DNA of 41,544 nt from Parabacteroides sp. (GTDB lineage: Bacteria > Bacteroidota > Bacteroidia > Bacteroidales > Tannerellaceae): assembly GCA_017937385.1 (NCBI GenBank), contig JAGBDR010000070.1, positions 1 through 41,544 on the forward strand. The letters run 5' to 3'. Below, piece after piece: positions 1 to 9,539 of the stretch; position 1 is the first letter of the stretch, and every line of letters starts with the position of its first letter. The notes under the pieces were generated by a model. The model ran no database searches. It was not told the origin of the DNA and worked only from the letters and a program-made list of their open reading frames with translations. Made by a program: the position numbers and the translations under genes.

Positions 1-36
1 TGTTCGCCTGTCGCAGGGTAATTGCCGTTGTTCCAT

Positions 37-64
37 GTAGAGACGCACAGCCGTGCGTCTCTAC
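37..64. repeat. Dispersed palindromic repeat, intact copy
   Basis: Two perfect 12-base arms (GTAGAGACGCAC and its complement) surround a 4-base loop. A second, partly decayed copy lies at 10862-10889. Sequence outside the arms is also loosely complementary (gccgtt on the left, aacggc on the right), so the full hairpin may be longer. It lies about 60 bases beyond the stop of the minus-strand DUF6383 gene and could end its transcript, but no T-run follows. I see no coding sequence in the rest of 1-122. Confidence 0.8.
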
Positions 65-122
65 GGTACGGGGAACGGCACGCGGCCAAACATTTTAGAA
101 TTATTTGATTATAAATTCATGC

Positions 123-3100
123 TTATTTTACGATAGCCTTCACTGCTTCTTCGCCTTCGACTGCTACTACGACTACACCCTGAGGAGCAGCGATTACAGC
201 ATTGTCAGAAGCCAGAACCGTGTTAGCAACTACCTGACCGAGGATGTTAGAGATAACAACCTTCTTACCGGCTGCACCAGCGATTGTTACCTGACCTTCA
301 CCGGCGATAACCGTTACTTCAGATGTAGCGATTGTTTCGTTATCTGTCGGTTGTTCTTCAAACTTTTCGTCCATATTGAAGATGTCGGCATCTTCGATCT
401 TGTCTACAACAACTACGACACCGTTCATCCATTTCAACCAGCCTTCACCATCTTTTTCAACCTTGTCGATACCCGGCAATCTCTTGTAGTTGGCAGTTTC
501 GATACGGAATGAGCCTGCTGCCTGATCGTCATAACGGAAGGCGAACTTAGCTTGGTTGTAGCCATCGTTACCAACGATGATCTTCTTGTTGTCGGAAGCG
601 ATGATCAAAGTATCCTTGATGTGAGTAGCCTGAACGAATCCTAAACGATAGTAGTTTTCGCTGTTGATATACGGATTGCCTACTTTGTGTTTGTTAGCCT
701 TATCCCACTTGATAGCTGTGTCAACCAAGTTAACCAGATAACGGCCTTCTACCCAACCGTCAACATCTTTCAGGTGTTCGTCTTTGCAATCTGCGCCTAC
801 ACCGTGTACCGGGCAATACTTGCCAGCCGGAGTCACCTTCGGACCTACAACCAGCATATACTGCGGACGATATGTATTGTAACGTACATACGCTGTGTCA
901 GCTACCATGCCCGAAGCAATCTGCGGGAACTGAGCGATATTTTCCATACCCAAGAAGTGCTTGTCTTCAAACAGAACAGACTTTTCATTGTCGTTTCTGA
1001 AGATAGAGATTGTATCCAACGGATTGACAACGCGACGATACATCGGCTTGTTTGTTTCTTCGATTACAAACAGGTCGTTTTCGATACGGTTGAACAGGTT
1101 CGTTACATTCAGAAGACCATCCTGCGTGTCACCTGCATATACTTTCTGCTGGTTAGCACAGTCATCAAAACTTGTCTGATACAGAGGAGTCGTCGTTCCA
1201 TCGACTTCTTCATCCAATTTCCACGGTTCAACCAAACGCAGATTCAACTTTTCTGCCTTTTGACGCAGAGCGTAGAAATATTCTTTTTCGTTTTCTTTAA
1301 CAGCTTCACCTACTTTCTTTGCAAAGAATGTCTTGCTGGCTGTATTGTAGAACAACTTTTCGTTATACTGATTTACGAATGAATAAGTTACAACTTTCAA
1401 CGTATCTTCAATATAATCCTGGATTTCATCTTCTGCATTCCAGAAGTACAGTTTGTTGACAACATAGATACTGTCGGAACGTTTAGCTTTATCCTGGTAA
1501 GCCGCATTTTCATATTCTTTCTTCTCAGCATTGTGAGCTACAGCAGTCCAAATGGAAGCATCGCTATCGTCAGCAGACAAGCTGATTGCATGACCTTCAG
1601 AATGTTCTTCTGTGAACCAAGCGTTTCCACCGAATACCTTAGAGTAGAATGCGATATGGAATTTCTTGTTCAGCAAATCAACAGTGCTACCCAAACGATC
1701 GTAACCGTCAGCCTCTGTTGTTTCAACCGGTTTGATTTCAAACTTCTTTCCTCCTAAAGAGTAGATATGATCATCTTTCGTACCAGATTCATACAATGCT
1801 GTACCTGCAATCGTATACGTTGCATTCTGATTTTCACGGTTTGTGAAAATATAAGTATTAGCAACTTCGTCATAAGTCAAAGCCCACTGGCTTTCCAAGA
1901 TGTTGTTTACAGATGAAACGAATTCTGATTTTACACAAGCCTCGTTTTCTACGATACCCAGAACTTTCCCATCCTTCAAGTTCTTCACTGTAAAGAATTT
2001 CGGAGCCAAAACTTTCTTCCAGTCAGCCAAGTTGTCGCCACCTAATTTGATTTGGATTGGCTTCAGAACGATTGGAGACTGTTCGTAATTGTAAGTCGGT
2101 TCAACAGCCAAATAAGCCTCATTTCTGAAGTCAAGACGTCCGATTTGGCCTTTGTATTTATTATTATGGTCAAAAACATTAATCCCTACAATTTCTGTTA
2201 CAGCTGTAACACTTTCCTTTTCATTATAGTTGAATTGGAACTTGCCATAATATTTCTGTTCACCCGATTTCAAGATATCTCTTTTCAAAACATCTTCACT
2301 AACTTCTGTGAAAGCATAAGCACGCTGCCATGAACCTTCAGCCAAATCAGCCAATGCTACAACATACTTGCCATTACCGTTCTTTACATAAAATTCAGAC
2401 TGAGTTGTTGCAGCCACAAACTTCTTGTTATTGCTATCCCATGCCATCGGAGTCAAATGACCAGTGAAATAGTTGTCTTTCAAAGTAACATTCCAAGCTG
2501 TTTCTGGTTCATTCAATCCCTTGATTGTTACAGAGAAACCGTTTTCTTCGTAATAGTTCAATTGGTTAGCAGTCAAAACTCTATTCTGGGACTCTACAAA
2601 TGCGAAAAGAGAAGCATCTTTCAAGTCTGAAACCAAAGAAAACTTACCATCTTTGTAAGATACATACTTGCCAGAAAGAGTTTTCAACAAATAACCATTA
2701 TCAGTTTCTTCAACCGTAAAGTCATTATCAGTAACTTCATTTTCATCTGCAATATAAAAATCTTCACCACCAAAATTGTAAGTGAAAGAGAAAGTTCCTT
2801 TGTTTTGAGGATCTTCTTTTGCAACAAAAAGAGATGTATAGCTGTCGCCTACATTAAATTTATAAGTTTTACCATCAATAAGACCAGCTTTAAACCATTC
2901 CCATTCAGATGGAGTTTCCAAATTGGTGGCATCAGCGTCAAAAGCGATTACAAGTTTAGTATTATCATTAGTTAAGATATCTTTTTGAGAATCCATATAC
3001 ACTTTACTCAGTTGTGTATAAGCCTCCTCACCGACTTCAACTCCCTTTTCATTAATACTAAATGCAGCTGATTTACCAATCTTCAATATTTCACCTTCAA

Positions 3101-3374
3101 AATTCACTAACTGATAAGTGCCTTTTTCTGTCTTTACAACTTTCCAATAAGACTTACCAAGAGCTTGAGCAAGAGAACCATCAGCACCAATCAAATAACG
3201 AGGAATTTGAAGAGTAGCCCACGCCTTGCTGTCAGCGTCTTGTTTAGCCACTGCGCTAATTGTGTAATACTTTCCGTCACCAGCCACCTTAGACAATTGT
3301 TCTGCCCAAGCTGAGGAAAGCAATCCACCGGCCAGTAAGAACCCGGCCATCAGAGTAGAAAACTTTTTGTTCAT
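123..3374 (-). CDS. Large secreted DUF6383-type surface protein
   Basis: A secreted protein of 1083 residues. It starts with a signal peptide (MNKKFSTLMAGFLLAGG, then SSAWA before the likely cleavage site). The long middle part is rich in K, D, N, Y and F, with many short beta-like segments. The last 75 residues form a small domain containing GKKVVISNILGQVV and a run of valines, which resembles the DUF6383 C-terminal domain of Parabacteroides secreted proteins. It also looks like the terminal sorting or secretion domains of other Bacteroidetes surface proteins. I chose the ATG at 3374 because the signal peptide begins there; an in-frame ATG lies 13 codons upstream. No enzyme motif is visible. 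Two Cys and several His near residue 890 (KYCPVHGVGADCKDEH) could bind a metal. Function is unknown; a cell-surface role is inferred. Confidence 0.85.
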   Translation of the reverse strand: MNKKFSTLMAGFLLAGGLLSSAWAEQLSKVAGDGKYYTISAVAKQDADSKAWATLQIPRYLIGADGSLAQALGKSYWKVVKTEKGTYQLVNFEGEILKIGKSAAFSINEKGVEVGEEAYTQLSKVYMDSQKDILTNDNTKLVIAFDADATNLETPSEWEWFKAGLIDGKTYKFNVGDSYTSLFVAKEDPQNKGTFSFTYNFGGEDFYIADENEVTDNDFTVEETDNGYLLKTLSGKYVSYKDGKFSLVSDLKDASLFAFVESQNRVLTANQLNYYEENGFSVTIKGLNEPETAWNVTLKDNYFTGHLTPMAWDSNNKKFVAATTQSEFYVKNGNGKYVVALADLAEGSWQRAYAFTEVSEDVLKRDILKSGEQKYYGKFQFNYNEKESVTAVTEIVGINVFDHNNKYKGQIGRLDFRNEAYLAVEPTYNYEQSPIVLKPIQIKLGGDNLADWKKVLAPKFFTVKNLKDGKVLGIVENEACVKSEFVSSVNNILESQWALTYDEVANTYIFTNRENQNATYTIAGTALYESGTKDDHIYSLGGKKFEIKPVETTEADGYDRLGSTVDLLNKKFHIAFYSKVFGGNAWFTEEHSEGHAISLSADDSDASIWTAVAHNAEKKEYENAAYQDKAKRSDSIYVVNKLYFWNAEDEIQDYIEDTLKVVTYSFVNQYNEKLFYNTASKTFFAKKVGEAVKENEKEYFYALRQKAEKLNLRLVEPWKLDEEVDGTTTPLYQTSFDDCANQQKVYAGDTQDGLLNVTNLFNRIENDLFVIEETNKPMYRRVVNPLDTISIFRNDNEKSVLFEDKHFLGMENIAQFPQIASGMVADTAYVRYNTYRPQYMLVVGPKVTPAGKYCPVHGVGADCKDEHLKDVDGWVEGRYLVNLVDTAIKWDKANKHKVGNPYINSENYYRLGFVQATHIKDTLIIASDNKKIIVGNDGYNQAKFAFRYDDQAAGSFRIETANYKRLPGIDKVEKDGEGWLKWMNGVVVVVDKIEDADIFNMDEKFEEQPTDNETIATSEVTVIAGEGQVTIAGAAGKKVVISNILGQVVANTVLASDNAVIAAPQGVVVVAVEGEEAVKAIVK

Positions 3375-3478
3375 AATCAATAAATAATTAATTGTTAATA
3401 AAATAGTGTACAAAAAAACTCAACAATTAATTTTACGAAGGGGAATGACAACCTCCGCGAATGATTATGAACGAGCAT

Positions 3479-3559
3479 AAAAAAAACGCGAACTGTTATC
3501 TATTATCCAATTAGAGGCTCTGGTAAGCCCGTAGAAAAATAATAGAACAACAGCCCGCG
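3479..3559 (-). terminator. Rho-independent terminator of the candidate small RNA
   Basis: On the minus strand CGCG plus CTGTTGTTCTATTAT pairs, with a bulge, with ATAATAGATAACAG plus CGCG. The loop holds a smaller GGCT/AGCC hairpin. Eight T residues follow directly (3479-3486). The stem is unusually long for a terminator, so it may also be part of the functional RNA. Confidence 0.65.
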
Positions 3560-3744
3560 CTTTATACGATATAATACACTCCACCCTTAGTGGATAAACT
3601 ATAACGTAATCGGCGCAAGCATTTACTGTCCATTATTCCTTTCTACTCAAAAATTTACCAGATTTCTAATTGGGAATAATCTTCGTAAAATGCTTACAAT
3701 ATGTAATTGATCCCGCACACTGTAGACCGCTATCTACTACAGAA
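3479..3744 (-). ncRNA. Candidate structured small RNA, possibly 6S-like
   Basis: This is a self-contained minus-strand unit of about 266 nt. It has a TAnnTTTG box at 3751-3758, a 5' hairpin (CTGTAG/CTACAG, 3720-3742) and a long imperfect stem. In that stem AAGCATTT (3688-3695) pairs with AAATGCTT (3617-3624) and ATTATTCC (3673-3680) pairs with GGAATAAT (3632-3639), leaving a symmetric 7x7 internal loop. A small hairpin TCCAC/GTGGA follows (3580-3594), then a terminator hairpin with eight T. No convincing ORF lies inside. A long stem with an open central bubble is typical of 6S RNA. A Bacteroidales-specific RNA family is the other obvious candidate. It could also be an attenuator leader of the DUF6383 gene, which starts 105 bases after the T-run and has no clean promoter of its own. 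Confidence 0.55.
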
Positions 3745-3750
3745 TCGTTG

Positions 3751-3758
3751 CAAAGGTA
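3751..3758 (-). promoter_or_regulatory. -7 promoter box TACCTTTG for the candidate small RNA
   Basis: The minus strand reads TACCTTTG, matching the Bacteroidetes -7 consensus TAnnTTTG. It places a start of transcription near 3744, just before the first hairpin. I see no clean -33 TTTG at the usual spacing. Confidence 0.5.
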
Positions 3759-3837
3759 AATAGGTTTTCCGAATCAACAAGAAAAAACACTCATAATTTT
3801 CCAAAATATAGGGGTTGAAGGACAAAACAATAGCATT

Positions 3838-3884
3838 TAGGCAACATATTCCCCCTATCTGAGGATAAGAGGGTTGAATGCCTA
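3838..3884 (-). terminator. Hairpin downstream of the plug-domain gene
   Basis: TAGGCA pairs with TGCCTA, enclosing a second stem of CCCTCTTATC against GATAGGGGG with a CTCA loop. It begins 26 bases after the stop codon of the gene at 3910-6237. The following minus-strand sequence is only moderately T-rich, so termination is inferred. Confidence 0.45.
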
Positions 3885-3909
3885 CGACGGGATATCCTTT
3901 CCGGATTCA

Positions 3910-6237
3910 CTATTTAACCTCAAACGGCCGGCAAAAGGAGACGACTTTTTTGTCTTTTGTGATGACATCGACCAACAAGACGTAGTGTCCAGGCAGGACG
4001 GGAGCACGAAGCGGTTCATACACCCTATTTGAGGACCGGTATAAACCCAAGGGATAAACGGTTGATCGGGCTGACGGTTCTGACGGATCTATCGGTTGCA
4101 GGCCCGATCCTCGCAACGTCTGTAACAACAAAACACCACCTTGTGCGTTGTAAGGGATACAACGTGTATCCGATGGTTTAAGTATCTCAATGGATTTAAA
4201 TCCTCCGGCGGGTTGGTCCAAAATGTAATTGATATCACCGAACGCAATTTCGCCATCTACCACAACGGTCAGCTTGCTATTCATCACGCCACCTCCAAGC
4301 CGCATATCTCGCGTGCTACGCCAAAAGACACCCAATTCTCCACCCGACGAAGAAGAGGTATGAGAGAGGTTTGCAACCCGCTCCTTATCTTCATTGCTGA
4401 ACCTCCTTCGTTTCTCGCGTGCACCTAACTCACCGATTCCTCCTCCTTCGGAAGTGGCTCGTACAACAATGGTCGGGAATCGGCTCAATACGGAATAGAG
4501 GCTCAATCCCGCCCGTTTCTGCAATTCGATTTCTCCTATGAAATTGATCGGTGTCCGGCTCAGTTTCCGTATATCGACCGGTTTGCGGGCCTGTACCGTC
4601 ACACTGTCAAGATGATACACTTTGTCTTGGTTTTCATCTATGCTGTAACGAATAGAGGAACCGGTTTGCGAGATATCCGGCAGTAAACGGGTTTGCCGGA
4701 ATAGCGGATAGGGAATTCCGGATTCCGGATAGGCAGCCGTATCCAGAGTAAACATACAATTCTTTGGTTTCCCCTTGCTGTCCCGGGCGGAAAGGATAAA
4801 ACGCGTACCGCTCGCATAATCGTCGACCGGAAAGATGAAATGTCCTTTTTCATCTGTTGTTCCCGAATAATACATTTGGTCATCGGCGTTTTGCGCCTCA
4901 ATAACCGTCCCCGCCGGTAAGGGGCAGTTTTCTTTTTCCCACGCCGTGCCGGAAAGGAGCATCACATCTTCTGCAAAATAAGTATGAGGCATTCCTTCTT
5001 TTATCAATTCTTCTATGGAGAAAAGGGCAAAGCGGGCCGTGAACAGCCAGTTGTTTATTTCCGCCATTTGATTCTCCCAATCCTGGCTGTCCATCAGTGG
5101 AAAACGAACGGGTGACAAAAGTTCGTTACCAAACCCAAAAGCGGGATAAGCCTGTGACGCCATCAAATCATATCGGGGAACCACCCGGGTAAAAACGACG
5201 CTACTGTCCGGCAAGCGGTTTTCAAGATTCAACGGTGCTTCCGGTGCATAAACCGGTTGTGGCAACCGGCAGGCGATATCGAAAGGAGGTTCGGTCGGTG
5301 GCAACCACACGCTACGCCCATTCAACAAACGGGCGTCCTTGTCTGTCAAGAAAAGCGTATAACTCCCTGCGGGATATTCGGTCAAATCGACCCTAACTGA
5401 GGTTTGCCCCGCCTGAAGAGGGATCTCCTTTAAACCGGTCTCGGCATGATAGAAAAACAGATGCAAGGCCTGTTCTTCAGATGAGAAAATCCGGCAGGCA
5501 AGGCGTTTCCTATTCAAAACGACCTGTAAAGCTGTCCCTGAGGCAACTGCCTCTACCGGAAAACGGAAAAAGCGACCGTCATATTCGACCAGCAACTGAT
5601 AGGGTTTTCCACCCGTCGGCTGAAACACAAATTTGCCTAACCCATTATCAGAAACCGCTATCTGATGTATCACCGTGTCCTGATTAGCCGCAAGGAGCTT
5701 TACTTGTGTGGGAACGACCGGGAAACCGTCGTCGTCGGTCAGATGGAAAACCAGGTTTTGGCGAAACCCCTCCAGCAAACTTCCGCTTTCCGGATAAATA
5801 TGCGCATGGACTTCACGCACCACGGCATTCTTTTGCGGATGGACAGTTCCCAACAGAAAGGGAACAACAGTCTGGCTTTCCGAGGCATAGTTTTGCATCA
5901 ACCGCGTATATGCTCTCAGATAACACACATGGGATTCCCATTCCAACTGGGTAGGTATCTCCGTACAGAAAACACCATCCTCGCGACAAGCCACCTTTTG
6001 CCGAAGCAACAGGGAATCCCGATCGTCCATACATTCAATATAGACATACCGGCTATAAGGATTTGACTGACCGTTTCCACTTGCCATCACTTGCCCTTTT
6101 ACCCGCAGCGTATCGCCCGGCACACAGCTTTCTTTCTCCGTCGCCAGAAAAACACGTTCGGTCTGCAACGTCTGTCCCCAAAGCGGAAACAGGCAGCACA
6201 GGCAGAGTTGCATGATCAAAAATTTATATGAGTTCAT
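3910..6237 (-). CDS. Secreted MG-type domain protein with orphan TonB plug domain
   Basis: A 775-residue exported protein with signal peptide (FLIMQLCLCCLFPLWGQ). The N-terminal part (residues about 25-130, PGDTLRVKGQV) looks like the macroglobulin MG2 domain of alpha-2-macroglobulin-like proteins. The middle has more beta-rich repeats, including a carboxypeptidase-regulatory-like segment (GTVIEAQNADDQ, DEKGHFIF). Residues about 560-700 resemble a TonB-receptor plug (IELQKRAGLSLYSVLSRFPTI, later VVVDGEIAFGD and GGVLLLQT). No 22-strand barrel follows, so it is not a transporter. Such proteins are common but uncharacterised in Bacteroidales; an outer-membrane or periplasmic adaptor role is inferred. 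I chose the ATG at 6237; a TTG five codons upstream would overlap the preceding gene. Confidence 0.75.
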   Translation of the reverse strand: MNSYKFLIMQLCLCCLFPLWGQTLQTERVFLATEKESCVPGDTLRVKGQVMASGNGQSNPYSRYVYIECMDDRDSLLLRQKVACREDGVFCTEIPTQLEWESHVCYLRAYTRLMQNYASESQTVVPFLLGTVHPQKNAVVREVHAHIYPESGSLLEGFRQNLVFHLTDDDGFPVVPTQVKLLAANQDTVIHQIAVSDNGLGKFVFQPTGGKPYQLLVEYDGRFFRFPVEAVASGTALQVVLNRKRLACRIFSSEEQALHLFFYHAETGLKEIPLQAGQTSVRVDLTEYPAGSYTLFLTDKDARLLNGRSVWLPPTEPPFDIACRLPQPVYAPEAPLNLENRLPDSSVVFTRVVPRYDLMASQAYPAFGFGNELLSPVRFPLMDSQDWENQMAEINNWLFTARFALFSIEELIKEGMPHTYFAEDVMLLSGTAWEKENCPLPAGTVIEAQNADDQMYYSGTTDEKGHFIFPVDDYASGTRFILSARDSKGKPKNCMFTLDTAAYPESGIPYPLFRQTRLLPDISQTGSSIRYSIDENQDKVYHLDSVTVQARKPVDIRKLSRTPINFIGEIELQKRAGLSLYSVLSRFPTIVVRATSEGGGIGELGAREKRRRFSNEDKERVANLSHTSSSSGGELGVFWRSTRDMRLGGGVMNSKLTVVVDGEIAFGDINYILDQPAGGFKSIEILKPSDTRCIPYNAQGGVLLLQTLRGSGLQPIDPSEPSARSTVYPLGLYRSSNRVYEPLRAPVLPGHYVLLVDVITKDKKVVSFCRPFEVK

Positions 6238-6244
6238 TTTGTGT

Positions 6245-6679
6245 TTAGCCAAATATTATACGTATAACTACGATTCTAACCAAAACTGGCATAGTTCCCG
6301 TCCATGGAGCTGAAGCATCATCCATTATATTTACTTGCAAATCCCAAAAACCCTGATCCTTATAGCGTTTGTATATATGATCCATGAAATTTTCCTGACT
6401 AATTGTTAAATACAAATGGTTGCCATTTATCTCACATGAAGATACAATCCCATTTTGGATTTCAATTCGTTCATAACTGCCTATTTCTATATGAGCATCA
6501 ACTATAACTTCAGGGTCATTCATATTATAACTTACAGCTCCCCAAAAGCTCGTTGGGACATTTGAGTTTTCACTACTAAGGATGCTAATATTAGTATTTT
6601 CTCCTCCAATGTTTTTCGCTGAGATACCTGAAGTTGTAATCCATAACAACAAAACTGAAAGTAATTTTAATCGCTTCAT
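6245..6679 (-). CDS. Small secreted protein of unknown function
   Basis: A 144-residue protein with a clear signal peptide (MKRLKLLSVLLLWITTSGISA) and a predicted beta-rich mature part (VIVDAHIEIGSYERIEI, NHLYLTISQ). It ends 7 bases before the start of the plug-domain gene, so the two form an operon and probably act together in the cell envelope. The ATG at 6697 would add six residues before the signal peptide. Its base composition is more AT-rich than the gene downstream. I do not recognise a family with confidence; it resembles small Bacteroides DUF3244-like secreted proteins only in layout. Confidence 0.7.
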   Translation of the reverse strand: MKRLKLLSVLLLWITTSGISAKNIGGENTNISILSSENSNVPTSFWGAVSYNMNDPEVIVDAHIEIGSYERIEIQNGIVSSCEINGNHLYLTISQENFMDHIYKRYKDQGFWDLQVNIMDDASAPWTGTMPVLVRIVVIRIIFG

Positions 6680-6898
6680 ATAAGTGTATTTTATCATACC
6701 ACAATATTAATACCTTCTTTTTAAATACACATACTATCTATCATAAAAATGCAATTTATTAAGGTATAAAATAACCTATTCATTTGATGTTAAATTCCGA
6801 ATGATACTGAATTAACAAATTTTTCATGTGTGCATTTACAAAACAATACACCATTAGAGTTTTTCCTTAATACTATATGCTGATCTCAAGATATTCCA

Positions 6899-6906
6899 TA
6901 CCTTTG
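6899..6906 (+). promoter_or_regulatory. -7 box of the first antitoxin copy
   Basis: TACCTTTG matches TAnnTTTG and lies 30 bases before the start codon at 6937. The leader between box and gene is almost identical to that of the second copy. Confidence 0.55.
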
Positions 6907-6936
6907 TCCGCATAACATAACAAAAACCATAAGAAT

Positions 6937-7170
6937 ATGGATTCAATCGCAATCAAGAAAGTAAAGCTATTCCTTCCGGAAGTGGATATGGATGTGCTGA
7001 AAAAGTTGGCGCAGCAATACGGTTGGAGTATCGGCAAGAAGAAATCAGGTATTCAAAGAGGGTTGGACGATATCAAGGCTGGACGGGTTTACAAAGCCAA
7101 AGACATGGATGATTTAAAACGGCACTTATTAGCTAAGATCCAAAGATATTCCATACCTTTGCCCACATAA
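6937..7170 (+). CDS. Orphan antitoxin paralogue, first copy
   Basis: A 77-residue protein whose first 50 residues are nearly identical to the antitoxin at 7192-7392 (MDSIAIKKVKLFLPEVDMD). The tail after GRVYKAK is different (DMDDLKRHLLAK). Its last eight residues (RYSIPLPT) are encoded by the promoter leader of the second copy, so the natural C-terminus has probably been lost. No toxin gene follows it directly. In this type of antitoxin the N-terminal part usually binds DNA and the C-terminal part wraps the toxin. This copy may therefore still bind the shared operator without neutralising the neighbouring toxin. It could also be a non-functional relic. Confidence 0.75.
   Translation: MDSIAIKKVKLFLPEVDMDVLKKLAQQYGWSIGKKKSGIQRGLDDIKAGRVYKAKDMDDLKRHLLAKIQRYSIPLPT
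7154..7161 (+). promoter_or_regulatory. -7 box of the second antitoxin copy
   Basis: TACCTTTG lies 30 bases before the start codon at 7192. It also lies inside the last codons of the first antitoxin copy. Confidence 0.55.
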
Positions 7171-7191
7171 CATAACAAAAACCATAAAAAT

Positions 7192-7392
7192 ATGGATTCA
7201 ATCGCAATCAAGAAAGTAGAACTGTTCCTTCCGGAAGTGGATATGGAGGTGCTGAAGAAGTTGGCGCAGCAATACGGTTGGAGTATCGGCAAGAAGAAAT
7301 CGGGCATTCAAAGAGGGTTGGACGATATCAAGGCTGGACGGGTACATAAAGCTAAAAATGCCGAAGATATGTTCAAACAGATATTAGGATGA
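7192..7392 (+). CDS. Antitoxin of a YafQ-type toxin-antitoxin pair
   Basis: A 66-residue protein that overlaps the toxin start by four bases (ATGA at 7389-7392), the usual sign of translational coupling in type II systems. The C-terminal part (GRVHKAKNAEDMFKQILG) looks like the toxin-binding tail of RelB/DinJ-like antitoxins. The N-terminal part is not a DNA-binding fold I can name. It is expected to bind and block the toxin and to repress its own promoter. It is one of two tandem copies in the window, and the only one directly linked to a toxin. Confidence 0.85.
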   Translation: MDSIAIKKVELFLPEVDMEVLKKLAQQYGWSIGKKKSGIQRGLDDIKAGRVHKAKNAEDMFKQILG

Positions 7393-7664
7393 GATACGAA
7401 CTGGAATATGCCAACAGTTTTAAGAAAGACCTTAAAACCTGTAAGAAAAGAGGCTACAACTTAGCTCTACTACAAGAAGTCATCGAAATACTGCAAGAAA
7501 CCGGAACCTTGCCCGAACGTTATCGGGCGCACAAGCTCAGCGGGACTTTTGAAGGGCTATGGGAATGCCATATCAAAGGCGACTGGCTCTTGATATGGCA
7601 ACAAAACGATATGGAACTTATCTTGATTATGACCGATACCGGCACTCATGCCGACCTGTTCTGA
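7389..7664 (+). CDS. YafQ-family mRNA interferase toxin
   Basis: A 91-residue RelE/YafQ-type toxin that should cut mRNA in the ribosome A site. All residues important in E. coli YafQ have counterparts here: H48 (YRAHKLSG), H61 and D65-W66 (ECHIKGDW), and H87 near the end (GTHADLF). The basic N-terminal segment (FKKDLKTCKKRG) fits ribosome binding. Length and motif spacing are normal, so the toxin is probably active and needs its antitoxin. The gene converges with folE, only 10 bases separating the two stop codons. Confidence 0.93.
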   Translation: MRYELEYANSFKKDLKTCKKRGYNLALLQEVIEILQETGTLPERYRAHKLSGTFEGLWECHIKGDWLLIWQQNDMELILIMTDTGTHADLF

Positions 7665-7674
7665 AAACAGGGCT

Positions 7675-8268
7675 TTACCGGTTGTGTTTGATCAGATTCA
7701 TAAATTCTTCGCGCGTCTTGGCTTGCTGGAAGAATCCGGTGAAGTCGGAAGTCGTGGTCAGGGAGTTCTGTTTCTCGACACCGCGCATCTGCATACACAT
7801 GTGTTGCGCCTCGATCACGACCATCACGCCTAACGGGTCGAGTGTTTCCTGGATGCAATCTTTGATCTGCATGGTCAGACGTTCCTGGATCTGAAGACGG
7901 CGGGCGAAGATATCCACGACACGGGGGATCTTGCTCAACCCCGTGATATACTTTTTAGGGATATAGGCGACATGGGCCTTTCCGAAGAAAGGCAACATGT
8001 GATGCTCACAAAGAGAAAAGAAATCGATATCCTTTACAATCACCATCTGTTTGTAGTCTTCTTCCTTGAACATGGCGCTGCGAAGCACGGCAGCCGGATC
8101 TTCCCGGTATCCCTTGGTCAGGAACTGCATCGCTTTGGCAACACGTTCAGGCGTTTTCAATAGGCCTTCGCGGTCTACATCTTCGCCAAGCAGATCGATA
8201 ATGCTTTTATAATGGCCGGCCAGCTCTTCACGGGCCAGCAAAGTCTTCTCGTTTACTTCTTCACTCAT
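7675..8268 (-). CDS. folE: GTP cyclohydrolase I
   Basis: A 197-residue enzyme that converts GTP to 7,8-dihydroneopterin triphosphate, the first step of folate synthesis and a source for queuosine precursors. Zinc ligands are visible as Cys and His in [15 protein letters not shown] and the second Cys in [11 protein letters not shown]. The substrate-binding GLSKIPR and the C-terminal [11 protein letters not shown] are typical. Length is normal for the bacterial enzyme. Its ATG lies one base after the stop codon of the SPOR gene, so it is the last gene of the DUF1599-doxX-tpiA-SPOR-folE operon. Confidence 0.98.
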
Positions 8269-8269
8269 T

Positions 8270-8761
8270 TCAATTCAATGGGATTTTGACTTCTTCCTTT
8301 ACAATGTACATTTCTTTCTTATAGGCCGGGAACGCATCCATCAGAAGACGTTGCATGTGATAGGCCTCTTCATGTGAACGGAAATCACCGATACGCAGGC
8401 GCCAGAACGGAGCATTGTAGGTCACGTATGTCGGGACATCAGGAAACAGTTCTTTGATCTCCTTTTCCTTCCGGAAAGCTTCATCTTTGGATTTGCGCTG
8501 GTTATTACCGGAAAACACCTGTGTGCGATAGCCTTGTATTTTCAGAAAGGCCATGTCGTCAATCCTTTCCACTCCCTCACCATACAGGCGTTTGCCAAGC
8601 CTGTCACGAAGGGCATCCGGCTGACGCACCGTCACGGTTCCTTTTCCGGGGACACGCTCCTGCAAGGCGTCGATGATGTCTTCCGGCTGTCTTCCTCCGT
8701 CCGTCTGGGCCGACAAGACAGAGGAGACAAGCAACATACATAAGGACAAGATGTACTTCAT
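8270..8761 (-). CDS. Exported SPOR-domain protein
   Basis: A 163-residue protein with signal peptide ([16 protein letters not shown]). The C-terminal SPOR domain spans residues about 80-155 ([12 protein letters not shown], later [14 protein letters not shown]). SPOR domains bind peptidoglycan lacking stem peptides, often at division sites, so a periplasmic wall-binding role is expected. I chose the ATG at 8761 because it opens the signal peptide; another lies four codons upstream. It sits 19 bases after tpiA and one base before folE, fully within the operon. Confidence 0.9.
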
Positions 8762-8780
8762 ATCAATTGACAATTGTCAA

Positions 8781-9539
8781 TTAATTAAACGCTTCGATAA
8801 TAGGCATGAACTTTTCGACAGCCAAAGATGCACCGCCGATCAGACCACCGTCTACGTTCGGTTTGGCAAACAGTTCCTTCGCATTGCCTGCATTACAGCT
8901 ACCACCGTAAAGGATCGTGCAGTTGTCGGCAATTTCCTGACCGTATTGGGCAGCCAGAGTAGCCCGGATATGTGCGTGGATTTCTTCAGCCTGGTCAGCC
9001 GTTGCAGTCTTGCCTGTGCCGATAGCCCAAACCGGTTCGTAAGCCAGAATGATCTTAGCGAAGTCTTCAGCAGACAAGCCGAACAAAGAACCCTTGATCT
9101 GAGCGTCTACCACTTCGAAATGCTTGCCGGCTTCTCTTTCTTCCAGCACTTCACCGATACAGAAGATCGGAGTCAGACCGTTAGCCAGAGCCAATTCAAC
9201 CTTTGTTTTCAGGATTTCCGGAGTTTCGTGATAGTAAGCACGTCTTTCAGAGTGGCCCAAGATCACATATTTCGCACCCGTAGAAGCAACCATAGCGGCA
9301 GAGACTTCACCTGTGAAAGCACCCTTTTCCTTGTCTGCGCAGTTTTCAGCAGCCACACCGATCTTGTCCGTGTCGATAGCAGCGGCCACGCTTGCCAGGT
9401 GAGTAAACGGAGTACCGATGATCACATCGCAGTTGGGAGTTTTACCTTTAAGAGCTTCGTCCAAGCCCTTTGCCAAAGCAAGACCTTCAGGAAGGGTTGT
9501 GTTCATCTTCCAGTTTCCTGCAACAATATTCTTTCTCAT
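8781..9539 (-). CDS. tpiA: Triosephosphate isomerase
   Basis: A 252-residue cytoplasmic glycolytic enzyme interconverting dihydroxyacetone phosphate and glyceraldehyde 3-phosphate. Visible active-site elements are Asn and Lys in GNWKMN near the N-terminus, the catalytic His in ILGHSERR, the catalytic Glu in [14 protein letters not shown] with the following flexible loop, and the phosphate-binding [10 protein letters not shown]. Length is normal. It lies in the middle of the operon, 32 bases after the DoxX gene. Confidence 0.99.

Follow-up and report, generated by a model that had tools for sequence, protein, structure and literature searches.

The window examined here, a 41,544-nucleotide (nt) stretch of a 3.73-Mb Parabacteroides genome (G000), carries on its minus strand a structured element that lies directly before a gene for a DUF6383 protein. 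Behind a Bacteroides-type promoter box, the element comprises hairpins P1 to P4, the last of which is a terminator followed by a U tract. Short strands of P2, namely the two tags X1 and X3 of its bubble and the apical loop K, are complementary to strands of P4 (X1', X3' and K'), and the 5' arm of P4 can also pair with the end of P2 in a way that would lengthen P3 and open the terminator. We propose, with moderate confidence, that the element represents a new class of structured leader RNA acting as a transcription attenuator. An earlier note on this DNA had read a promoter box, a 5' hairpin, a long stem interrupted by a 7x7 bubble, then a smaller hairpin and finally a terminator with eight T from the minus strand, and all of these are there, in the positions given below. 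It had also taken the element to be free of open reading frames (ORFs), and none of the 29 ORFs of at least 60 amino acids (aa) listed for positions 1-9000 overlaps it. The parts follow in 5' to 3' order, with the basis for each; A1 and A3 are alignments of the element with its homologues, A1 holding 43 of 48 selected sequences (five with a long or short P3 were removed by hand) and A3 holding 58; covariance model R1 was built from 43 sequences and R2 from 58.

Within 3769-3780, minus strand: upstream TTG of the promoter (sequence).
3751-3758, minus strand: promoter box TAnnTTTG, TACCTTTG, Bacteroides-type (sequence).
3709-3746, minus strand: P1, the 5' hairpin, moderately variable among copies with a mean pairwise distance of 0.15-0.20 (fold).
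3688-3695, minus strand: 5' strand of the P2 outer stem, partner 3617-3624; 95.3% of cells paired, two-sided changes in 5 of 6 pairs.
3681-3687, minus strand: conserved 5' side of the P2 internal loop, TACGAAG, facing 3625-3631 (sequence and alignment A1).
3673-3680, minus strand: 5' strand of the P2 inner stem, partner 3632-3639; 98.2% paired, two-sided changes in 6 of 8 pairs.
3665-3672, minus strand: tag X1, CAATTAGA, complement X1' at 3508-3515; 8 of 8 pairs in the window copy.
3655-3661, minus strand: K, the apical loop of P2, CTGGTAA, complement K' at 3520-3526; K score 20.1 within copies and 13.2 between copies, with covarying alleles.
3640-3646, minus strand: tag X3, GTAGAAA, complement X3' at 3531-3537 (copy comparison).
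3632-3639, minus strand: 3' strand of the P2 inner stem (covariation).
3617-3624, minus strand: 3' strand of the P2 outer stem (covariation).
3613-3620, minus strand: 5' strand of the antiterminator (extended P3), GCTTGCGC, partner 3553-3560 (moderate covariation).
3567-3612, minus strand: P3 hairpin, of a length that varies among copies (fold and alignment A1).
3539-3560, minus strand: 5' arm of P4, the terminator, with 3553-3560 common to the antiterminator; helices 92.6-97.5% paired, two-sided changes in 18 of 20 pairs.
3531-3537, minus strand: X3', a strand of the P4 bubble (copy comparison).
3516-3530, minus strand: apical hairpin of P4 with K' (TTACCAG, 3520-3526) (copy comparison).
3508-3515, minus strand: X1', a strand of the P4 bubble (copy comparison).
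3487-3507, minus strand: 3' arm of P4, the terminator (covariation).
3479-3486, minus strand: U tract of eight T (sequence).
3454-3459, minus strand: segment D, complementary to the P4 3' arm, CGCGGA with TTCGCG (permutation tests).
123-3374, minus strand: gene behind the element, ATG at 3374, with an N-terminal signal-like stretch MNKKFSTL and a C-terminal DUF6383 domain, E 1e-31 (ORF and Pfam).

The 289-nt strand folds with a minimum free energy of -93.5 kcal/mol, against -65.4 ± 4.7 kcal/mol for 200 dinucleotide shuffles, none of which did as well (z = -5.9). Among the 58 members of A3, a TAnnTTTG box lies no more than 120 nt upstream of P2 in 51 (mean 4.9 and maximum 13 in 200 shuffles), and 56 end in a U tract, defined as at least 6 T in 8 nt at the 3' end. 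The P2 and P4 stems together have 96.1% of their A3 cells paired, with two-sided changes in 29 of 37 pairs and a covariation score of 0.403 against 0.230 for shuffled and at most 0.125 for slid alignments; because A3 was fitted to P2 and P4, this test leans towards its own structure, whereas the tests of P3 and of the tags involved no fitting of the alignment to those helices. Compensatory changes were also found in both of the helices that the earlier note had singled out for them, 3617-3624/3688-3695 and 3632-3639/3673-3680, at the pair counts listed above.

The element is one of a large family. BLASTN in G000 gave nine long matches including the window copy, at 79-100% identity, eight of them across most of the query and one across its first 221 bases; among relatives, 23 of 59 genomes (G000 included, all of one genus) had matches, some of them short. 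R1 at E ≤ 0.001 finds the element in 34 of 38 genomes of the genus and, on the scale of the order, in 79 of 295 genomes and 57 of 183 genera. R2 at E ≤ 1e-5 finds it in 33 of 395 genomes of a phylum sample, 30 of these outside the order; in one further family, f60, it matched 91 of 121 genomes. The counts from the larger searches are lower bounds, because stricter filters were used and few candidates were scored per genome. G000 itself has 17 distinct R2 sites at E ≤ 1e-5, nine of which are DUF6383 leaders, and 2 weaker sites besides; Parabacteroides gordonii has 21 sites. The R1 match numbers per genome (up to 46) may count antisense echoes, the 34 matches in G000 reducing to the 17 sites and 2 weaker ones. 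Conservation among related genomes, on which the earlier note had staked its reading, thus reaches across genus, order and phylum. A search for mobile carriers yielded no match in viral contigs (by one exact 22-base motif) or in plasmids and phages (by blastn, suited to close relatives only).

No Rfam family accounts for the element. Across the whole window none of 4227 families attains its gathering score, 20 loci of the family searched at E 0.1 gave no match to the element, and a permissive search of the window element up to E 10 returned only twister-P3, at 20.4 bits and E 0.17 against a gathering score of 39.9, a similarity at chance level that we set aside. The earlier note had named 6S, Bacteroidales-1 and other families as those to search, and none of them matched. 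Its reading of the element as a previously undescribed structured RNA that carries a promoter box and a terminator of its own stands, given the lack of an Rfam match and the many compensatory changes. The class was likewise not met in open-licence literature, preprints excluded, which is weak evidence of its being unpublished; it is new with respect to Rfam 15 and the literature searched, as distinct from all literature. Fremin and Bhatt 2021 report 3161 candidate structured RNAs (PMC8040213), which may include the present class. For Flavobacterium psychrophilum, conserved small RNAs (sRNAs) and structured 5' elements without Rfam hits are reported (PMC9723704), and some of these may belong to the class as well. 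The passages covered of a study of B. thetaiotaomicron describe long 5' untranslated regions (UTRs) and 6S RNA and contain no such family (Ryan et al., 2020; PMC7366714). Elaborate bacterial RNA structures such as ROOL, GOLLD and OLE, to which the element has no Rfam match, are described in the part of the source seen as large and homo-oligomeric, and the term kissing loop is used there (PMC12286853).

The P2 bubble strands X1 and X3 and the apical loop K are complementary, copy by copy, to X1', X3' and K' of P4: the summed complementarity for strands of the same copy is 59.3 (87 copies), against 37.0 ± 0.58 in 2000 permutations (maximum 39.4), which, like the other permutation tests here, break relatedness and do not give exact probabilities. 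The sample began with 93 extracted elements, of which 87 were parsed, 83 anchored and 75 kept after near-identical tags had been dropped. In these 75 non-redundant copies, 7 or 8 of 8 positions are paired in 67 for X1 and in 68 for X3, compared with 639 and 527, respectively, of 5550 between-copy combinations, the register being free by 2 for copies and controls alike; in a fixed register, X3 is paired in 40-54 of the 75 at each position. A copy is its own best partner, ties allowed, in 47 of the 87 for X1, 47 for K and 62 for X3. K has few alleles, and these covary with K' (CGCCAA/TTGGCG, CGGCAA/TTGCCG, CTGGTAA/TTACCAG, CTCGAC/GTCGAG and CTACCAAA/TTTGGTAG).

The same relation holds in further sets under a test that accepts any three collinear helices with no preset register, and in which the antiterminator helix replaces X1 or X3 in some rows. 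Scores were 60.6 against 45.8 ± 0.94 for Parabacteroides (32 sequences), 60.8 against 47.8 ± 1.07 for other families of the order (26 sequences), 62.3 against 45.4 ± 1.62 outside the order (20 sequences, one from each of 20 of the 30 such genomes with an R2 match), 62.4 against 46.7 ± 2.3 for family f60 (12 sequences, the whole loci among 16 new ones) and 62.4 against 44.5 ± 2.4 for 10 non-DUF6383 copies of G000, two of them weak matches. A sequence was strictly its own best partner in 20 of 32 rows for Parabacteroides and 10 of 26 for the other families of the order, counts that are low partly because alleles are shared. The earlier note had thus placed its hairpins correctly and overlooked both the complementarity of the terminator hairpin's bubble and loop to those of the long stem and the multicopy nature of the element.

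Taken one at a time, the stems and docking helices are conserved or complementary, and in our model they coexist in one molecule. Pairing of the bubbles and kissing of the loops would then produce two four-way junctions in succession, a double-crossover. To our knowledge, a double-hairpin lock of matching bubbles and a kissing loop occurs in designed RNA and in no natural leader. An alternative switch, in which a four-way junction would branch-migrate along the AU-rich inner stems, was tested and rejected, since pairing did not exceed that of row-permuted controls (0.568 against 0.582 for P2-3'/P4-5' and 0.429 against 0.444 for P2-5'/P4-3'). In two loci at contig ends (L070 and L072, G008), the same foreign sequence (ATATACACTAATCG...) enters the element at one common position, following GGCGATA in the apical hairpin of the terminator; this shared interruption is possibly a site-specific insertion.

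The terminator also competes with a second structure. Its 5' arm (GCGCGGGC) pairs as well with GCUUGCGC at the end of P2, lengthening P3, and since this arm is common to the extended P3 and P4, the two cannot coexist; the extended P3 also costs the outer P2 stem two bases. In A3, whose fitting did not involve this helix, the extended P3 has 94.7% of cells paired against 90.8 ± 0.6 and 30 two-sided cells against 5.4, neither value being reached in 500 shuffles. At two antiterminator positions the three strands concerned change jointly, from G-C-G to A-U-A, in 3 of 43 sequences each. As judged from the alignments, the antiterminator is conserved and exclusive with the terminator, with moderate support from covariation, and its conflict with P4 is arranged as in an attenuator.

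Segment D, between the U tract and the start codon, often sits in the loop of a small hairpin (by eye). Its complementarity to the P4 3' arm is 16.2 against 14.1 ± 0.23 over 104 elements (p ≤ 1e-4) and 16.4 against 14.9 ± 0.27 permuted over 70 Parabacteroides copies, and the covariation is visible in pairs such as GTTCCC/GGGAAC, AGTCCC/GGGACT, CAACTCC/GGAGTTG, TAAACCCA/TGGGTTTG and TGCCTG/CAGGCA. Such pairing is possible only in readthrough transcripts, with P4 at least partly open.

The position of the element before genes provides a further line of evidence. Pfam places 20 DUF6383 domains above cut-off in G000, and by coordinates the nine BLASTN copies each immediately precede one of them. 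In 23 loci the element has an MNK-type protein gene behind it, in the same direction in all 23; the start codon comes after 90-99 nt in 21 of these loci and after 82 and 162 nt in the other two. Over genus, order and phylum, 75 of 104 elements have a codirectional ORF with an ATG and at least 120 aa starting within 250 nt, against 30 of 104 with a divergent one; under a looser count (ORFs of at least 70 aa), 94 of 105 elements have a codirectional ORF, at a median distance of 52 nt. Products that look exported by a home-made hydrophobicity rule number 54 of 94 behind elements and 56 of 178 among neighbouring genes (p = 5e-5). These 104-105 elements are not independent, about 20 coming from one genome (G018), and the export count omits three DUF6383 leaders of that genome.

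Among 19 hand-picked downstream proteins, Pfam identified six extracytoplasmic function (ECF) sigma factors (two of them behind weak G000 matches, E 2e-4 and 5e-4), one FecR, two TonB plug domains, two BspA-type leucine-rich repeat (LRR) proteins, one with DUF6383, and one GLUG-repeat protein; four of the 19 had no Pfam match, and the remainder had other or weak ones. In one locus (L188, G015), a BspA-type LRR protein with a C-terminal DUF6383 domain stands behind the element and joins the surface-protein families. Outside the order, three loci (L218, L222 and L227) have short ORFs of 144, 96 and 95 aa within about 40 nt after the element, the last two alike by eye (SELSAF, SLKNG). Elements also occur in tandem (L020, L026, L084 and L064), L020 and L026 being tandem before one gene. 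In L084 (G002), four tandem elements precede one gene, and two of these, L084_257 and L084_588, have lost their tag pairing.

Riboswitch- and T-box-type leaders attenuate transcription by means of mutually exclusive antiterminators and intrinsic terminators. As in those leaders, the element would be a 5' leader with an antiterminator set against an intrinsic terminator, and it too occurs in multiple and tandem copies; it differs in that no Rfam relative was found and in that the first of its docking hairpins, P2, would attach to the terminator hairpin by two helices between the bubbles and by a kissing loop, with sequence specific to the individual copy. The attenuator principle is therefore familiar, and the novelty is in the RNA class and in the docking. 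Transcription would start just upstream of P1, P2 would be the first to fold and P3 the next, and the 3' arm of P4 would then decide the outcome. If P3 extends, so that GCUUGCGC pairs with GCGCGGGC, the 5' arm of the terminator would be held, P4 would remain open and the gene would be read, and the 3' arm of P4, now free, could pair with D ahead of the start codon. If instead P4 closes, transcription would stop at the U tract, and in this terminated state P2 would lie beside P4, held there by the X1:X1' and X3:X3' helices and by kissing of K with K', a docking that would stabilise the terminator and so favour termination. Copies with no gene behind them would release only terminated RNA. Sequence comparison supplies the framework for these steps, namely complementary or covarying helices, the conflict of extended P3 with P4, a promoter box, a U tract and a place before genes; the RNA is presumably made, and its termination presumably occurs and is regulated in response to a signal.

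Several observations weigh against an attenuator. Nearly every copy has a complete terminator, as an independent sRNA gene would, and a plain attenuator has no need of rapidly varying docking helices. Two-sided changes in the antiterminator affect only 3 of 8 pairs, a number equalled by 61 of 500 shuffles, and further antiterminator pair types are also not above shuffles on A3, so that two of five measures fall short. In G000, 11 of the 20 DUF6383 loci have no element upstream (best E 0.32), although at one of them, on contig C107, the stretch is cut by the contig start; and 29 of the 104 elements lack a codirectional ORF of at least 120 aa within 250 nt. Finally, in three genomes of one genus (L150, L151 and L153), a copy with tags identical in all three lies between ispF- and mnmA-like genes (identified by eye) with no shared gene behind it, and to judge from its setting may be a natural free-standing version. 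Even so, of the two readings that the earlier note had offered, a 6S-like RNA and an attenuator leader of the DUF6383 gene, the attenuator is the better supported, by the nine of nine BLASTN copies before DUF6383 genes, the 75 of 104 elements with a codirectional ORF and the covariation of the antiterminator.

A special case of the attenuator is a riboswitch, in which P2 and its internal loop bind a metabolite or second messenger and the attenuator is the output. We regard this as possible but rather doubtful. The P2 stem strands, internal loop included, are near-invariant within a genome (distance 0.00-0.06) while the tags vary, and surface and ECF sigma genes together with several copies per genome would resemble a second-messenger regulon; however, the genes behind the element have no common pathway and no ligand to point to, and docking tags are unusual for riboswitches.

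Alternatively, the element might be an independent family of trans-acting sRNAs, in which promoter, body and terminator make up a complete gene and the downstream genes have promoters of their own, the position before them being incidental or co-inherited. What keeps this account alive is the complete terminator and the existence of copies with no gene after them, and the tandem copies also suit it. Multicopy sRNA families are known in Bacteroides, and the FopS/GibS sRNAs are, like the present element, a multicopy Bacteroidales family with sigma-ABfr-type promoters, according to the portion of the source seen (PMC11697453). As described there, FopS members have in common a seed and a 41-nt motif located at the RbpB footprint, and 9 of them are intergenic, 4 antisense and 1 derived from a 3' UTR, whereas the present family, compared by description only, has variable tags and a 5' hairpin of variable sequence and lies mostly before genes (PMC11697453). 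An incidental position would, by contrast, leave unexplained the start codon at 90-99 nt in 21 of 23 Parabacteroides loci and the excess of codirectional (75 of 104) over divergent (30 of 104) genes, as well as a downstream segment D that tracks the sequence of the terminator arm and the presence of an antiterminator. We therefore judge an independent sRNA family unlikely, though it deserves to be kept in view.

The tags bear on what a terminated RNA might do. In three genomes with 9, 12 and 12 leader copies, the mean pairwise distance among copies is 0.39-0.61 for X1, X3, X1' and X3', compared with 0.15-0.20 for P1, 0.23-0.36 for P3 and 0.19-0.28 for the P4 3' arm; the P4 5' arm and the strands of the P2 stem stand at 0.00-0.08. 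The tags thus diverge faster than P1, P3 and the stems. Across 51 copies in five genomes, none of 240 same-genome pairs is within 2 of 15 differences, while 3 of 144 pairs compared between two species do share tags; random tags would also be unique, so uniqueness alone is no evidence of selection. The rapid change may reflect compensatory drift in helices that are free in sequence, or selection for private codes. On a more speculative reading, which we think has a small chance of being right, the tags are addresses: P2 and P4 of one locus would recognise each other through a private code of 20-odd nucleotides, and a released terminated leader would act in trans only on the nascent leaders of its own locus, or would pair only with itself. 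Were this so, each surface-protein or sigma-factor gene would have an RNA feedback channel to itself, with the architecture common to all.

A further candidate is a guide RNA, similar to IS110 bridge RNA or to H/ACA RNA, with bipartite guides flanking the bubble and tags that pair with DNA or RNA targets. In IS110 bridge RNA, each of two stem-loops has a bubble flanked by variable strands on either side, and the element resembles it in this; but the element's two bubbles are complementary to each other, the tags being satisfied inside the molecule in most copies, and no linked recombinase gene was found in G000, where the sole IS110-type transposase hit (PF02371) lies on C4, a contig without any of the 17 sites. 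One contiguous X1-A-X3 match exists, in a thrA-like coding region (L271, G000:C3:57065-57080), and the reversed control pattern gave none; for these tags, those of the window copy only, about 0.2 such matches are expected by chance (an estimate), and allowing any gap brings the count to about chance level. A guide RNA is very improbable on this evidence.

Equally hard to credit is a repeated DNA element, of the miniature inverted-repeat transposable element (MITE) or repetitive extragenic palindromic (REP) kind, whose inverted repeats mimic RNA stems. The family is multicopy, has palindromic parts and gives several matches near contig ends; against this, element and gene are codirectional in 23 of 23 leader loci, the compensatory changes include G-U pairs, the divergence is phylum-wide, and phages, plasmids and viral contigs gave no match at the sensitivity of those searches. 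A phase-variable promoter was rejected as well, element and MNK-type gene being codirectional in the 23 loci with no inverted copy seen.

Least probable of all is the 6S-like RNA of the earlier note, which would trap RNA polymerase: the element has the long stem with a symmetric bubble and the promoter box and terminator of its own that mark 6S, 6S-Flavo (RF01685) and Bacteroidales-1 (RF01693) RNAs, but their models do not score it even at E = 10 (nor did 20 loci match a 6S family at E 0.1), it is multicopy before genes (the 17 G000 sites), and its bubble strands find their match, copy for copy, in those of a second bubble, which argues against the bubble staying open. Bacteroidales-1, which we take to be the 6S RNA of the Bacteroidales, is a separate single-copy locus in G000 that scores 184 bits.

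The attenuator leader that we favour appears to be a widespread regulatory RNA class of a dominant gut and environmental bacterial phylum, with several to many sites in some genomes, and it sits before genes for surface proteins, ECF sigma factors and TonB-dependent receptors, among others. If the attenuator reading is true, the switching of individual Bacteroidota surface genes opens to direct test.

Two other features of the window were noted. At 6937-7664 on the plus strand, tandem near-identical short ORFs of 77 and 66 aa, with no Pfam match, are followed by a YafQ-type toxin (PF15738, E 2.6e-32); by gene order, this is a toxin-antitoxin locus with two copies of the presumed antitoxin gene. 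Past the 3' end of the DUF6383 gene, at 37-64, lies a perfect 12-base inverted repeat, GTAGAGACGCAC/GTGCGTCTCTAC, that looks like a dispersed palindrome or a terminator.
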